Assembly (NCBI RefSeq): GCF_000715505.1
Contig: NZ_JHEH01000010.1
Coordinates: forward strand, 1-64,000
Source: Thioclava dalianensis
GTDB taxonomy: Bacteria > Pseudomonadota > Alphaproteobacteria > Rhodobacterales > Rhodobacteraceae
Direction of reading: 5' to 3'
DNA length: 64,000 nucleotides
Below are positions 34,958 to 41,047 of this stretch, piece by piece. The position numbers and the translations under genes were made by a program. Within the stretch, counting starts at the first letter, position 1, and each line of letters starts with the position of its first letter. Under the pieces are notes generated by a model. It saw nothing but the letters and a program-made list of their open reading frames with translations. It ran no database searches and was not told where the DNA came from.

Positions 34958-36154
34958 TCAGCCCGCTTTCGGGACGGAACGGGGCTCTTGCTCCGACGGC
35001 TGGTGTAAGATGCATTGCCCGCGACCCGCCGCCTTGGCCGCGTAGGTCGCAACATCCGCGTCCCACAAGATCCGGGCTTTCTCGGGGGCGGCGTAATCTA
35101 TCGACCGCACGACACCGAGTGAACCGGAAATCCGGGATTCCGCCCCCTCGAAGCGAATAGGCTCGGACAGGCGCCCGATCAGCCGCGCGCCCAGTTCCGC
35201 GATCTGTTCGGGCGTCATCGTACCGCGCATGAGCAGCACAAACTCATCGCCGCCCATCCGTGCCGCGAGATCGCCCACGCGCAACGAGTCCCGCAAGATC
35301 TCAGAGACGACGCCCAGCACATAATCGCCCGTCGCGTGGCCCAAACTGTCATTGACCTGCTTGAAGTGATCAAGGTCGATCTGAACGAGGGTAAAGCCCG
35401 CGCCGCCACGTGCCGCCCCCGCCAAAGCCTGATCCAGTGCTGCATCCATCGCACGGCGGTTGGCCAAGCCTGTGAGCGGGTCACTCAGCGCTTGCGCCTC
35501 GGCGGCCTTGCGGGCCTTGTCGAGACGCGAGGTGAGCGCGCGCAATTCCCCCGTCACAAGCGCCTTGGCCTCTTGCTGATACAGCAAATCAATCGCGAGA
35601 TCCGCCGGAGAGAAATCTCCATCCGTCAGGGCGAACTCGGCCACGGCCTCACGCAAGTGAATGCCGAAACTGAGGCTCAGCAAGATGCCTGCCTCACCCG
35701 CTTGCCCGACACTGAACGCCTCTCCGCGCAGGCCAATCCCCGGCGCCTCGACAAGCGTGAGATGCACGATACGCTGCTGTGCCAAGCGCATCAGCGAGGC
35801 CCCACATCGACCCATCCGGCGATCGCAACTCTGCGCCTGGTTCTGCGCGGCGCAAAGGGGCGTACCGGCATCTTGGCATCTCTCAAGCCGATCGCGGCTG
35901 CGCCCAATCCGGAAGAAGCGCTCAAATGGCTGACCAAGTACCGAGCGACCACCCATGGCCTTCTGCAAGGTCGCGCCCAAGGCGCAAATTTTGCCCTGCG
36001 GATCGACCCAAAGAAACATCGGCAGCAAGGCCCCGAGGATCGGGACGAGTTGCTCAAACTCCTGCGCACGTGTCGCAGTTCGTGCGATCACCTTGCGCAG
36101 GGCATCGCGGGACGCGAGCCCCTGACTGGGCGCAATCTCGGGCGCCCCGTTCAT
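34958..36154 (-). CDS. diguanylate cyclase with H-NOX-associated (HNOBA) domain
   Basis: A 398-residue cytosolic c-di-GMP synthase. Residues about 30-215 match the haem-NO-binding-associated fold (LLPMFLWVDPQGKICALG, then FSPADLAIDLLYQQEAKALV), followed by a coiled coil and a GGDEF domain (about 225-385) with an intact RMGGDEF active site and an inhibitory I-site RxxD (RVGD) five residues before it. No membrane segment. The ATG overlaps the H-NOX stop, so the two proteins are coupled and expected to interact. In studied systems H-NOX binds NO at haem and controls the cyclase; here the H-NOX partner seems unable to bind haem conventionally. Confidence 0.92.
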   Translation of the reverse strand: MNGAPEIAPSQGLASRDALRKVIARTATRAQEFEQLVPILGALLPMFLWVDPQGKICALGATLQKAMGGRSVLGQPFERFFRIGRSRDRLERCQDAGTPLCAAQNQAQSCDRRMGRCGASLMRLAQQRIVHLTLVEAPGIGLRGEAFSVGQAGEAGILLSLSFGIHLREAVAEFALTDGDFSPADLAIDLLYQQEAKALVTGELRALTSRLDKARKAAEAQALSDPLTGLANRRAMDAALDQALAGAARGGAGFTLVQIDLDHFKQVNDSLGHATGDYVLGVVSEILRDSLRVGDLAARMGGDEFVLLMRGTMTPEQIAELGARLIGRLSEPIRFEGAESRISGSLGVVRSIDYAAPEKARILWDADVATYAAKAAGRGQCILHQPSEQEPRSVPKAG

Positions 36155-36741
36155 CCGGCGCCCCCCACGGCGTGCGACAGTTCGAACGCCCGACCCCGGC
36201 TATGACTGTGATCGAGCAGTCGGAGCGACAAACGCTCAGTCCCATCGGGGGCGGGGTCGATCAGTTCGATCAGCGCCAGCGCACCGTAATCATCTGCCAT
36301 CGCGCGCACCAAACCGGCCAGCACAGCGCCCCAGCCGGGCTGCGCGGCGCGCACTTCAAGCGCGAAATGATCTTTCTCCCCCTCAAGCAAGAACAGTTCG
36401 GGCAGATGCAAATAGTCGAGCGCCATCTGCGTGCGCCCCTGCAATTCATTCAACGATCTGAGAAAATCGACGAAATCCCGCCCGCCATAGCGTAAGAGGC
36501 GCCGCACCGCTTCGCGGGTGGTCAGATAGGCGCCAAGATCCTCCAGCAGGTCGAGCCGCCCGCGATTAAGCCGGGTACAAGCCGCCTCGATCAGCGTGTC
36601 GGTTACCGCTTCATCATAGCCCAGCATCGCTTCGAACCCCTCTTCCGGGATTGAGCTCCGCTGTGCGATATCGCGCCAGACCTCCTCTCCGAACGTATCG
36701 GACAGGAAATTTTGGATAGATCGATTGACCAAGCCCTGCAT
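36151..36741 (-). CDS. H-NOX-fold protein lacking the haem-anchoring residues
   Basis: A 196-residue protein with clear H-NOX shape (MQGLVNRSIQNFLSDTFGEE, then GGRDFVDFLRSLNEL). By-eye alignment shows all four diagnostic residues changed: the proximal His is Gln101 (LNELQ instead of LDNLH), and the YxSxR motif is Val130, Ala132 and Gln134 (EVRAAQ). The spacing is otherwise kept, and the offset to the reference numbering (102, 131, 133, 135) is a constant one residue. It overlaps the downstream HNOBA-GGDEF gene. The usual NO/O2 sensing role is therefore doubtful; it may bind another ligand or act as a structural partner. Confidence 0.85.
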   Translation of the reverse strand: MQGLVNRSIQNFLSDTFGEEVWRDIAQRSSIPEEGFEAMLGYDEAVTDTLIEAACTRLNRGRLDLLEDLGAYLTTREAVRRLLRYGGRDFVDFLRSLNELQGRTQMALDYLHLPELFLLEGEKDHFALEVRAAQPGWGAVLAGLVRAMADDYGALALIELIDPAPDGTERLSLRLLDHSHSRGRAFELSHAVGGAG

Positions 36742-36801
36742 GATGCCTCCATCGGCACATGCTATGCTCCAAGCCTTAACAATCCCCGAAGATCTGAGCG
36801 C

Positions 36802-38517
36802 TTAGCGCATCCTCGGCACCAGAAGCGCGCCATTCACGGAAAGCGCCGAGAGCCCGCTTGGCACGATCTTGTAATCCCCCGCGACAATCGCCGCGATCAC
36901 CGCTTCAGGATCGACCGGAGCGCCGCCGAGTGCGCGCGTCACGCCATCAAACTGCCAGACATCTCCCGAGCGTGAGAACGCACGCACCGGGGGCTGGCCC
37001 GGCGCTGCGACCACCAAAAGGGCGTCCTGACCGGTGTGATCGGGCCGAAAATTCGCGACGACGACGGCGCAGATCGGTCGCTTGGCGGTCCCGGTCAGGC
37101 AGATATTGCCTCCGCGCGCGCGCGCCTGCTCTGCGATCAGCGTGAGCAACCCCACAGGGATCGGCGCCGATCCGGTCGGCACCGCGATTGCTGCGCGCAA
37201 CGCGGCGAGATCGCTCTCTCCGCTGGCCTGCCCGTCACGCGGGTCAAGCGTTGCAAGCGCGCGCGCCAGATCCGGGTCGCTCTCGGCCTTGGCGCGAAGC
37301 TGCGCGACGGCCTCCTGACCGGGCCGCCCCCAGTCGCGCCCCATCCGATAGAGCGGCAGGCGTGACGCCGGAACCTCCCCCGCCGCGTAGCGCGCCAGTT
37401 GCGACTGTGCGGCTATCGTGTTGGCGTCGATCAGCGGCGTCAGCCACAGCACCGCCGCTGCAATCAGACCACCCGCCATCGCGATATTTACACGTCGAAT
37501 ACGCGCCATCCAGCCGCGCCCTGTCAGCACAGACCCGCCATAGCCAAGCCCGTAGCCCGCCAGCACGCAGAGCACCACCGTCTGTCCCACCAGCGCCGGG
37601 GTCCATCCGATCTGGGCGACCCTATGCGCCAAGCTCCATACAGCGACCGCAACGAGCACGGGCAGCACGACTGCGAGCGCCTTTGCTGCGTTGCGCGGCA
37701 ATCGGGTCGCCACGGCCTCGCTGTCGTCGCGCTCGACAGCTACCGAGATCATCGTGATCGCGGCGAGTGCCATCGCAATCAAGGTCTGACCGATCGACAG
37801 GCCGGGCACGCCCTCGCGCCCCAAACGCAGCGCTAGGCCAATGAGGAAAACGACGACCACAACAAGCACAACGGGCAGTAGCAGGCGCAGCAAACGCAGC
37901 AGCAAGAAGGGCGAGATCATGTCCTCGCGCTCAGTCACCACGGCCATGGCGAGGCCCAAAATGGCCCCCGACAACCCAAGCGCCAGCGCCGTGTTGCGAA
38001 ACAGCTCTTTGAGCAGATTGATCCCAACGCTCTCCAGCAGTTCTGACGACAGATAAAGCAGCAACCAGACCAGCGCGACAAAGAGCCAAGCCGCCCCGTA
38101 GCGCACCACGATCATCCATGACTGCGCGAACAAGACAGGGTAATTCCCTAGGCACCTGCGCCCCTCTTGCACGTAGGCCACGGCAAAGGGGATCGGCACG
38201 GCGCCGAGCACGAAAAGCGCCAGCACCCCGGCGGGCATCTGCGCTGCGACCGAGCGGGCGGGGTCGAGCGCGCCCGCCGCCCACCAGCCCAGCACGCTAG
38301 GCGCAATCGCGATACCCGCGGCCCCCAAAGCGGCACGGCGCAGACCGATCTCGCCCAGCATGGCCAGACAGGCCCCGAAAAACGCGACACCTGCAACCCC
38401 AAACCCAAACACCGCGCGCGGGCTTAGCGACAGCCCCCCGAGCGAGTCCGACTGCAGCGCCCAGAAAAACAGCCCGGCCAGCAGGCCGATGATGACATGT
38501 TGGACACGATCACCCAT
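36802..38517 (-). CDS. DUF4153 polytopic membrane protein
   Basis: A 571-residue inner-membrane protein. The N-terminal 380 residues contain about ten hydrophobic helices, including a leucine-rich segment around LLRLLLPVVLVVVVVFLIGL; the C-terminal 180 residues are soluble and hold a DUF4153-type domain. The role is unknown. The start at 38517 overlaps the end of the HAD phosphatase gene by 8 bases; an earlier in-frame start adds non-hydrophobic residues that belong to the HAD reading region. Confidence 0.8.
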   Translation of the reverse strand: MGDRVQHVIIGLLAGLFFWALQSDSLGGLSLSPRAVFGFGVAGVAFFGACLAMLGEIGLRRAALGAAGIAIAPSVLGWWAAGALDPARSVAAQMPAGVLALFVLGAVPIPFAVAYVQEGRRCLGNYPVLFAQSWMIVVRYGAAWLFVALVWLLLYLSSELLESVGINLLKELFRNTALALGLSGAILGLAMAVVTEREDMISPFLLLRLLRLLLPVVLVVVVVFLIGLALRLGREGVPGLSIGQTLIAMALAAITMISVAVERDDSEAVATRLPRNAAKALAVVLPVLVAVAVWSLAHRVAQIGWTPALVGQTVVLCVLAGYGLGYGGSVLTGRGWMARIRRVNIAMAGGLIAAAVLWLTPLIDANTIAAQSQLARYAAGEVPASRLPLYRMGRDWGRPGQEAVAQLRAKAESDPDLARALATLDPRDGQASGESDLAALRAAIAVPTGSAPIPVGLLTLIAEQARARGGNICLTGTAKRPICAVVVANFRPDHTGQDALLVVAAPGQPPVRAFSRSGDVWQFDGVTRALGGAPVDPEAVIAAIVAGDYKIVPSGLSALSVNGALLVPRMR

Positions 38518-39229
38518 CGCGCCCTGCCCGTCCCTGTTGCCGCAGCCACTCCGGGATCGCACCGATATCGGGCAGGACGGCAACGGCGACGGGGGCCAGA
38601 TCCGCTTCGCTGGCCGGACCGCTCAGAACGCCAAGCCCGCGCATGCCCGCCGCCCGTGCTGCGTAGAGGTCGTGACGGCTGTCACCGACCATCACAACGG
38701 CGGAGGGATCGAGCCCGAAACGGTCGGCAAAGGCCAAAAGCGGCCCCGGCTCCGGCTTTGCACCAAAGCCACTGTCATAGCCGATGATCATGTCGAACAG
38801 CTCGTGAATCTCGGCGCGGCGGGCATGGGTATGGGCCGTGGCCTCGGAATCATTGGTGCAAATCCCGAGCCGCAGGCCTTGTGCACGGAACGTTTCCAGC
38901 AAGGGGCGCAACGGCACTGGCGCCACCAGCGGCACCTGCTGGGCGGCAGCGTCGAGCGAGGCGATCAGGTCTGCGCGCTCATATCCCGGCAAAAGCGGCA
39001 AAAGCAGATCCGCCACCTCGCCTGCCGTTCCCGCGATCACCGGCGATTGCGGATAGAAACGGGCATGATCGAGGTCGAAAGCGATAGCCGCCGCAAGCCC
39101 CCGAAGATGCAGTTCACTGCGCGCCAAGGCCTTCAGCTGACCGCTGGCCCAGGCACCCCAGGTCGCGTCGAAATCGAACAAAGTGCCATCCTTATCGAAA
39201 AGGATCGCCTGAATTTCGCCGGTTGCCAT
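38510..39229 (-). CDS. HAD-family phosphatase (phosphoglycolate phosphatase-like)
   Basis: A 239-residue haloacid-dehalogenase phosphatase. The four HAD motifs are seen: LFDKDGTLFDFD (motif I, nucleophile Asp), GICTNDS (motif II Thr), a Lys in GAKPEPGP (motif III) and VVMVGDSRHD (motif IV). The cap is of the small helical class. Family members such as Gph release phosphate from 2-phosphoglycolate, which would feed the GlcDEF oxidase, but other sugar phosphates are possible. Start at ATG 39229 with AAGGA 7 bases upstream. It lies between a DUF3572 gene and DUF4153. Confidence 0.88.
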   Translation of the reverse strand: MATGEIQAILFDKDGTLFDFDATWGAWASGQLKALARSELHLRGLAAAIAFDLDHARFYPQSPVIAGTAGEVADLLLPLLPGYERADLIASLDAAAQQVPLVAPVPLRPLLETFRAQGLRLGICTNDSEATAHTHARRAEIHELFDMIIGYDSGFGAKPEPGPLLAFADRFGLDPSAVVMVGDSRHDLYAARAAGMRGLGVLSGPASEADLAPVAVAVLPDIGAIPEWLRQQGRAGRDG

Positions 39230-39655: not shown

Positions 39656-41047
39656 ATGGCCGGATCGATCCTCATCGTCGATGACGTCGCAACCAATCGC
39701 ATCGCACTCAAGGCGATGCTGTCTGCCGCACGCTACGAAACCTGTCAGGCCGCCAGCGGCGAAGAAGCGATCGCCGTTGCGATAGAGCAAAAGCCAGAGT
39801 TGATCCTGCTCGACATCGAACTGCCAGATATCGACGGCGTTACGGTGATCACGCGCCTGCGTGAAATGGCCGCGACCCGCTACATCCCGATCATCGCCAT
39901 CACGCCCAGCGACACGCCCGAGCAGCGTCTGGAGCTGTTGCAAAGCGGCGCCAATGACATTTTGTCGAAACCTTTCAACGAACTGGTTATGCTCGCCCGG
40001 CTACGCAGCCTGATGCGGGAATATGCAATTGATCGGGAGTTTTTGCGCCGCGAGACCGCGTGCAGCGAGCTTGGCTTTGCCGAGGCGCAAAGCGATTTCC
40101 GGCCGCCAGCGCGCATTGCGGTCATCGCGGCCCGTCCCGACTCGGCGCTGCGCTCGAAACGTGCACTGGCGCGCGAACTGCCCGGTGACCAGATCAAGAT
40201 CCTGAGCCGCGAAGAAACGCTCGCGCGCCCCGGTGCCGAATGCGCGGCGGATATTTTCCTGATCGAGGCGGGGCTTGCGCAACGCGGTGACGGGCTGCGC
40301 CTGATGTCCGAGCTGCGCTCGCGTCCCGAAACATCCAACGCGGCCATCGTGATCTGCACCCGGGCGGACGCACGCGAAACGCAGGCGACCGCGCTGGATC
40401 TCGGGGCCAATGATCTGGCGCCCATCGATCTTTCCTGCCGGTTTGCCGCGCGCGAGACCGCGCTGCGCGTAACAGCGCAACTGTGCCGAAAATGCAGACT
40501 AGCGCGACAGCGCGATGCGTTGGACGAGGGGTTGCGGCTGGCGATGGTCGACCCGCTCACCGGGCTCCACAATCGACGCTATGCGCTCACCCATCTGGCC
40601 CGAATGCAGGACCACGCGCGCAATACGCAACGCCCTTTTGCCGTCCTGATCCTCGATCTCGACCGATTCAAATCTGTCAATGACACCTACGGCCATACGG
40701 CCGGCGATGACGTCCTGATCGATGTGTCAAACCGGTTGCGCTCGAACCTGCGCAGCATTGATCTGATCGCCCGGCTGGGGGGGGAAGAATTCCTCATCGC
40801 GATTCCCGACACGACCCTTGCAGAGGCCGGGAGCGCTGCCGAACGCCTGCGCCGTGTGATCGACGAGTCTCCGATCCCGCTTGGCAACCGGCGCCGCATC
40901 TGGGTGTCGATTTCCATAGGTCTGGCGCTGGGGGGCACCTCTGCGAGCACCGCGCAGGATTTGATCGACCGGTCGGACGCCGCCTTGATGCGCGCCAAAA
41001 CGACCGGGCGCAATCAGGTCATGATCGATGCGGGAACGGCAGCCTGA
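39656..41047 (+). CDS. pleD: PleD-like diguanylate cyclase (receiver, degenerate receiver, GGDEF)
   Basis: A 463-residue soluble response regulator. The first receiver (1-120) has the phospho-accepting Asp53 in LLDIELP. The second receiver (about 150-275) has Glu in the corresponding position (DIFLIEAGLAQ), as in known PleD proteins where it acts as a dimerisation adaptor. The GGDEF domain has an active RLGGEEF motif with the I-site RSID five residues before it. It is divergent from DUF3572 and convergent with the Spy-like gene. Known PleD activity requires phosphorylation of the first domain by a kinase not present here. Confidence 0.93.
   Translation: MAGSILIVDDVATNRIALKAMLSAARYETCQAASGEEAIAVAIEQKPELILLDIELPDIDGVTVITRLREMAATRYIPIIAITPSDTPEQRLELLQSGANDILSKPFNELVMLARLRSLMREYAIDREFLRRETACSELGFAEAQSDFRPPARIAVIAARPDSALRSKRALARELPGDQIKILSREETLARPGAECAADIFLIEAGLAQRGDGLRLMSELRSRPETSNAAIVICTRADARETQATALDLGANDLAPIDLSCRFAARETALRVTAQLCRKCRLARQRDALDEGLRLAMVDPLTGLHNRRYALTHLARMQDHARNTQRPFAVLILDLDRFKSVNDTYGHTAGDDVLIDVSNRLRSNLRSIDLIARLGGEEFLIAIPDTTLAEAGSAAERLRRVIDESPIPLGNRRRIWVSISIGLALGGTSASTAQDLIDRSDAALMRAKTTGRNQVMIDAGTAA

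Follow-up and report, generated by a model that had tools for sequence, protein, structure and literature searches.

H-NOX proteins without the canonical haem-ligand residues beside a diguanylate cyclase in Thioclava dalianensis and related Rhodobacteraceae

In the window, that is, the whole 64,000-nucleotide stretch of Thioclava dalianensis DNA (contig NZ_JHEH01000010.1, positions 1 to 64,000) considered here, an H-NOX gene lies next to the gene for a diguanylate cyclase (Table 1). A first-pass annotation of this locus held that the residues that hold haem are replaced in the H-NOX, and suggested that the sensor has either moved to another ligand or cofactor or become a constitutive partner of the cyclase. 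The locus thus raises the question of what an H-NOX does beside a cyclase once its means of holding haem are lost, and whether this loss is peculiar to one genome.

Table 1. Positions of the gene pair at 34958-36741 and of associated features in the window
Feature	Position	Strand	Basis
H-NOX (HNOB) gene, 196 aa, without proximal His and YxSxR	36151-36741	(-)	ORF, Pfam, alignment, model
Diguanylate cyclase, 398 aa, PAS/HNOBA-like N-terminus (model and orthologues), GGDEF and RxxD	34958-36154	(-)	
Gln101 codon (CAG), position of the proximal haem His	36439-36441	(-)	alignment; counted from start codon
Codons 130-134 (V-R-A-A-Q), position of YxSxR	36340-36354	(-)	alignment; counted from start codon
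Upstream gene, DUF4153-like by D. shibae orthologue, part of conserved order	36802-38583	(-)	
CtrA-like promoter element TTCGGGGATTGTTAA, upstream of the H-NOX gene	36776-36790	(-)	

The H-NOX protein of the window

The window H-NOX matches the Pfam HNOB family (PF07700) at 69.9 bits (E 3e-19; curated cut-off 25.5). Its AlphaFold2 model, made with an alignment of 68, has a mean pLDDT of 86.8, with the last 16 residues below 50, and the top structural match of this model is the Nostoc H-NOX (TM 0.80, E 1.6e-12). Both the family match and the model thus bear out the annotated retention of the fold. Alignment with Nostoc Alr2278, whose His and Tyr/Ser/Arg we take to be the haem ligands, pairs Gln101 with the haem His and Val130/Ala132/Gln134 with the Tyr/Ser/Arg. 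The alignment spans residues 1-149 and is gap-free in the stretches at the haem positions, and it returns the same four replacements that had been read from the letters alone. In none of the alignments made does the haem pocket receive a His or a YxSxR from elsewhere in the protein, which leaves the annotated loss standing. The same haem-ligand residues are given for sGC (PMC8196705).

Judged by the proximal His of helix F and by the YxSxR that serves the haem propionates, the window protein falls outside the haem-based, NO-sensing H-NOX proteins, and its sequence suggests that haem is absent from it. It contains a single Cys, residue 55, carries Gln at position 2, and lacks His2, His76 and His95, which are frequent among its relatives. 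Its N-terminus is level with that of the Nostoc H-NOX in the alignment, with no N-terminal extension. The closest named relatives are the proteins of Thioclava indica (61%) and T. atlantica (58%).

Haem positions and selection across the family

The family was sampled with 394 genomes, close to one for each genus. HNOB is present in 296 of them and a match to the window protein in 288; 80 of the matching genomes without listed positions were re-searched, and 70 of those were fetched. The resulting 370 loci give 283 distinct clade sequences, counted as distinct aligned strings and collected for the most part through their similarity to the window protein, such that distant haem-keepers could be missed. 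The comparison set was 35 canonical copies that carry both His and YSR, namely those within reach of the clade profile. A stricter cut-off used in one count missed 7 loci of the strong class. Five rows were dropped: L028 (His, YSN), the two pieces of L245 and, because they fell below the cut-off, L367 (Gly, A/E/D) and L370 (Pro). L245 (genome G271) is a clade H-NOX broken by a TAA stop in the assembly; one of its pieces has the His.

At residue 101 the 283 sequences carry Pro in 197, Gln in 24, His in 18, Arg in 10, and Glu, Asn and Ser in 6 each, followed by Ala (5), Asp (4), Gly (3), Thr (2), Tyr (1) and Lys (1). YxSxR is found in none of the 283. Tyr130 is present in one (L312, which has Pro101), Cys130 in 157 and Arg134 in 16. 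Position 2 is His in 247; the window protein has Gln there, and several of its near relatives have Leu. In a FastTree tree the clade forms one branch (support 99) with none of the 35 canonical copies inside; deep branches within the clade are weakly supported. At least 14 changes between His and not-His at position 101 are needed on the tree, and in a smaller tree the His101 tips are dispersed among Pro-rich groups. T. atlantica (L064) and a genome of the same genus (G254, locus L035) have His101, encoded by CAC, one base apart from the Gln101 codon, CAG, of the window and T. indica (L063).

The order sample (149 genomes) contains the same family only. In the class sample, HNOB is present in 14 of 289 genomes, 10 of them from other families, and all 9 of the 10 that were aligned have His and YSR. 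The tenth, a weak HNOB protein from another family of the class (L298, genome G651), which lies outside both the clade and the reach of the profile, has YxSxN by eye and adjoins a gene that by eye resembles a sigma-54 activator.

The loss of haem ligands is clade-wide and not peculiar to the window genome; the exact four replacements vary from member to member. The locus is therefore no local oddity, as it had seemed when read in isolation, and the state is already in print. The H-NOX "Group 5" of Lee-Lopez and Yukl 2022 (PMC8738867), seeded with the H-NOX of Paracoccus denitrificans, is described as having the proximal His in <10% of members, mostly Pro in its place, and no conserved Cys. The axial His was reported missing from P. 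denitrificans H-NOX, as in R. sphaeroides, in 2017 (PMC5588039). The clade resembles Group 5 in its counts of His (18) and Pro (197) and in having Cys in more than half of the sequences only at 130, and the P. denitrificans sequence (L300; 38% identity to the window protein) is inside the clade set. The window H-NOX is a new example of this already published group. The review leaves the trigger of Group 5 open, asking how the group senses anything, and the text of its Group 5 section makes no mention of YxSxR. What is new here is the loss of YxSxR, the contrast in conservation, the strict cyclase linkage, the CtrA-like element and the place of Dinoroseobacter shibae.

Conservation was ranked over 189 positions in the 283 sequences. 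Variability is among the highest at positions 132 (rank 164) and 134 (rank 186); positions 101 (rank 105) and 130 (rank 104) lie mid-table, with Pro and Cys, respectively, as the commonest residues. Position 101 is not wholly free: Pro is dominant, and the 58 changes of letter on the tree are slightly fewer than the 67 of the median column. At least 98% conservation in the clade is seen at 21 positions, including W22, R80, R81, R84, G87, D150 and G153, all of which are unconserved in the 35 canonical copies; G70, G143 and P114 are conserved in the clade and the canonical copies alike. Among 62 pairs with >72% identity, dN/dS has a median of 0.14 and a highest value of 0.38, by a simple Nei-Gojobori count in which dS is near saturation for some pairs. 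The clade gene is under selection, though not for the canonical haem ligands, because the haem positions are unfixed while the 21 others are so strongly conserved.

This pattern bears on two proposals for a replaced signal. According to the first, which was the annotation's own, the vacated pocket takes another small molecule or cofactor and the pair senses a new signal. Such a change would agree with the retained fold, with the conservation of G70, G143 and P114 on both sides of the tree, and with a trigger left open in the review (PMC8738867), but no new residues have become fixed at the old ligand positions. The idea of a substitute ligand common to the clade was examined and rejected: among 215 sequences, the positions with His in more than 50% are 2, 76 and 95 alone, position 130 is the sole one for Cys (56%), and the window protein is without all three of these His residues. 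The proposed move to another ligand thus gained no positive support, and we regard it as unlikely. According to the second proposal, the protein is a redox sensor that works through cysteines and zinc. The H-NOX of Vibrio cholerae sets a precedent for haem-free signaling of this kind (PMC7108781), and Cys130 is common in the clade. However, the V. cholerae type has three zinc-binding cysteines and the window protein only the one at residue 55, no position other than 130 has Cys in more than half of the 215 sequences, and the review too notes no conserved Cys (PMC8738867). For the window protein, redox sensing is largely refuted by the missing cysteines and is hardly credible.

The cyclase partner and the promoter element

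The H-NOX and GGDEF reading frames overlap by 4 bases, and both are on the minus strand. All 281 clade sequences with room for a downstream gene (2 have no such room) are followed directly by a cyclase, versus 2 of the 35 canonical copies; thus the annotated overlap and kept operon hold for the window, and the linkage holds across the clade. In eight loci a cyclase seemed to be missing only because of the gap rule that was applied; it is present in all eight. This linkage also argues against a gene that is decaying and on its way out. The lost ligand residues, together with one clade member (L245) found in two pieces, could be taken as signs of decay, but the linkage, the low dN/dS and the 21 conserved columns refute a pseudogene at the level of the clade, and decay is left with a very small probability.

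In the 205 partners that were aligned, GGDEF is present in 204 and the Arg of RxxD in 202. The window cyclase has both GGDEF and the RxxD I-site, in agreement with the annotation of intact motifs. Its description as an HNOBA-GGDEF protein holds for the GGDEF part; the Pfam HNOBA domain gives no match in the window cyclase at E up to 1. Six other clade partners were scanned for HNOBA: D. shibae Dgc1 and L149 score above the cut-off, L100 has a match below it, and L094, L063 and L035 show none. The model of the window cyclase (pLDDT 84.8, pTM 0.52) consists of a mixed N-terminal domain, a long helix and the GGDEF domain; its best match is a PAS-GGDEF-EAL protein, although the superposition is poor (TM 0.36, rmsd 26.6 over the whole length). 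An insertion at about residues 93-117 of the cyclase contains four Cys (93, 101, 110 and 117) and is modeled with low confidence; at Cys93, the alignment places a residue in only 5 of the 205 partners.

The gene upstream of the pair has 35% identity to the gene upstream of the D. shibae H-NOX. The D. shibae protein scores 26.3 bits against Pfam DUF4153, just below the cut-off of 27, and a Pfam scan of the window protein gives no match.

Between this gene and the H-NOX gene lies a candidate promoter element. The pattern TTNR-N6-STTAA is present upstream of the H-NOX start in 153 of 281 clade members, versus a mean of 1.0 (highest 3) in shuffled sequence; it was found by word enrichment and was chosen post hoc, after the enriched words had been seen. 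In a subset of 213 members it is mostly 35-60 bases ahead of the start codon, and it is found in 4 of 35 canonical upstream regions and in none of 213 stretches within the gene. The element resembles the CtrA motif TTAAC-N5-GTTAAC (PMC7232146), with one half retained. A perfect CtrA site, TTAA-N7-TTAA, was rejected, since it occurs in 1 of 213 upstream stretches. The R. capsulatus cyclase is reported to be affected by CtrA (PMC9143464), and the HNOX and c-di-GMP genes of D. shibae have been reported to be under CtrA control, with the predicted CtrA site named at dgc2, not at hnox. The likeness to the motif suggests that the element may be controlled by CtrA.

What the pair may do

Published work on two related pairs bears on the effect of the H-NOX on its cyclase. 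The P. denitrificans pair HnoX/DgcA (Pden_3719/Pden_3720) resembles that of the window in having overlapping H-NOX and GGDEF genes and no axial His. Its biofilm is reported to decrease in an hnoX mutant and to increase in a double cyclase mutant, from which its authors conclude that H-NOX inhibits DgcA, and they model NO as the trigger of this inhibition (PMC5588039). The H-NOX of P. denitrificans HAMBI_2443 has Pro101 and A/S/Q; the window differs in its Gln101 and Gln2, and the genetics come only from Paracoccus.

In D. shibae there is a single HNOB gene, presumably Dshi_2815, which belongs to the clade and carries His101 together with C/W/R. Its locus is orthologous to that of the window over three genes (H-NOX 39% and cyclase 38% identity, in addition to the upstream gene). 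Unlike the window protein, it has His101 and Arg134, and it has been reported to bind both haem and NO, with the NO-bound form reported to inhibit Dgc1. D. shibae is the strongest fact against the whole clade being haem-less. It is, however, the only one of the 283 sequences to combine His101 with Arg134, and for this reason its NO sensing is not transferable to other members. Selection for the combination is unsupported, since 18 His and 16 Arg in 283 sequences predict about 1 joint case by chance.

The best explanation of the pair, to which we assign about an even chance, is that it is a haem-independent H-NOX pseudo-sensor that restrains its cyclase, with the output set by expression of the operon. 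The H-NOX would no longer hold haem via the proximal His and YxSxR, and would instead serve as a protein partner, binding the PAS/HNOBA-GGDEF cyclase via a candidate conserved surface. It would be stuck in a shape like that of an NO-bound H-NOX, in which the haem-His bond is broken; in Shewanella H103G work, breakage of the Fe-His bond reportedly gives the NO-bound shape, and a Shewanella H103G structure is, by its title, among the fold matches. The cyclase would be held back by default, and output would be governed mainly by operon expression rather than by NO. The pseudo-sensor part of this explanation is drawn from the clade-wide loss of residues, the modeled fold, purifying selection, strict linkage, intact cyclase motifs and the conserved promoter element. 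The inhibitory role is drawn from the Paracoccus genetics and from the reported inhibition of Dgc1 by NO-bound D. shibae H-NOX. Thus, the annotation's second proposal, a constitutive partner, fits better than a new ligand and is helped by the Paracoccus genetics (PMC5588039), while physical contact of the H-NOX with the cyclase and inhibition as the default state of the cyclase are proposed additions to it. Against a pseudo-sensor stand the haem and NO binding reported inside the clade, the NO trigger of the Paracoccus authors, the report of a later group that c-di-GMP is undetectable in P. denitrificans (PMC12582929), the constraint on position 101, and the prevalence of His2, which hints that something near the N-terminus matters in most members, though not through a His in the window protein.

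Several of these same facts would favor an H-NOX that retains haem in some other way, such as via the His2 of most members or with no axial protein ligand, and that still senses NO. The D. shibae protein is reported to bind haem and NO, and NO is reported to stimulate Paracoccus biofilm (PMC5588039). However, the window protein has Gln at both 2 and 101 and lacks the clade-frequent His76 and His95, the D. shibae result does not carry over, and NO acts on Paracoccus biofilm without hnoX too, its authors modeling a further NO path independent of H-NOX (PMC5588039). The probability of such unconventional haem binding is accordingly low.

The haem-independent partner has a parallel in the "pseudo-H-NOX" of sGC alpha, a haem-free H-NOX fold beside a cyclase, which is described as lacking the His in the human protein and YxSxR in the moth protein (PMC8196705). 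The window pair resembles it in retaining the H-NOX fold beside a cyclase after loss of the haem residues. It differs in that an N-terminal extension fills the pocket of sGC alpha (PMC8196705), whereas the window H-NOX is a separate bacterial protein without one.

A bolder version, which we hold only tentatively and consider somewhat more doubtful than not, extends this partner role to the whole Rhodobacteraceae clade. In the clade, what was once a gas sensor would have become a haem-free regulatory subunit of the cyclase that is always on, with the inhibitory NO-bound shape frozen, selection acting on the partner surface alone, control exerted through CtrA-dependent expression, and D. shibae as the lone keeper or regainer of haem. 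Genes in this group carry haem/NO-binding annotations and are discussed in those terms, and a role for NO in R. capsulatus and Paracoccus has been argued by analogy. If the haem-free reading is true, such transfer of an NO role would be unsafe for the 265 of 283 members without the His. A natural test of what an H-NOX does without haem would be provided by close relatives that have His101 (T. atlantica) or Gln101 (the window and T. indica) in the same operon.

Gln101 recurs in R. capsulatus: the member from strain SP108 (L094), which probably stands for rcc02630, has Gln at 101 and V/G/F, and in this respect the pair rcc02630 and rcc02629 resembles that of the window. The R. capsulatus mutant data concern the cyclase, not the H-NOX; rcc02629 is reported to affect GTA production and motility (PMC7232146).

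The window's assembly contains one HNOB gene, five GGDEF matches and three EAL matches. A second diguanylate cyclase is located near the pair, at 39656-41047 (+); it is 463 aa long, has GGEEF and a receiver-like N-terminus, and is PleD-like by eye.
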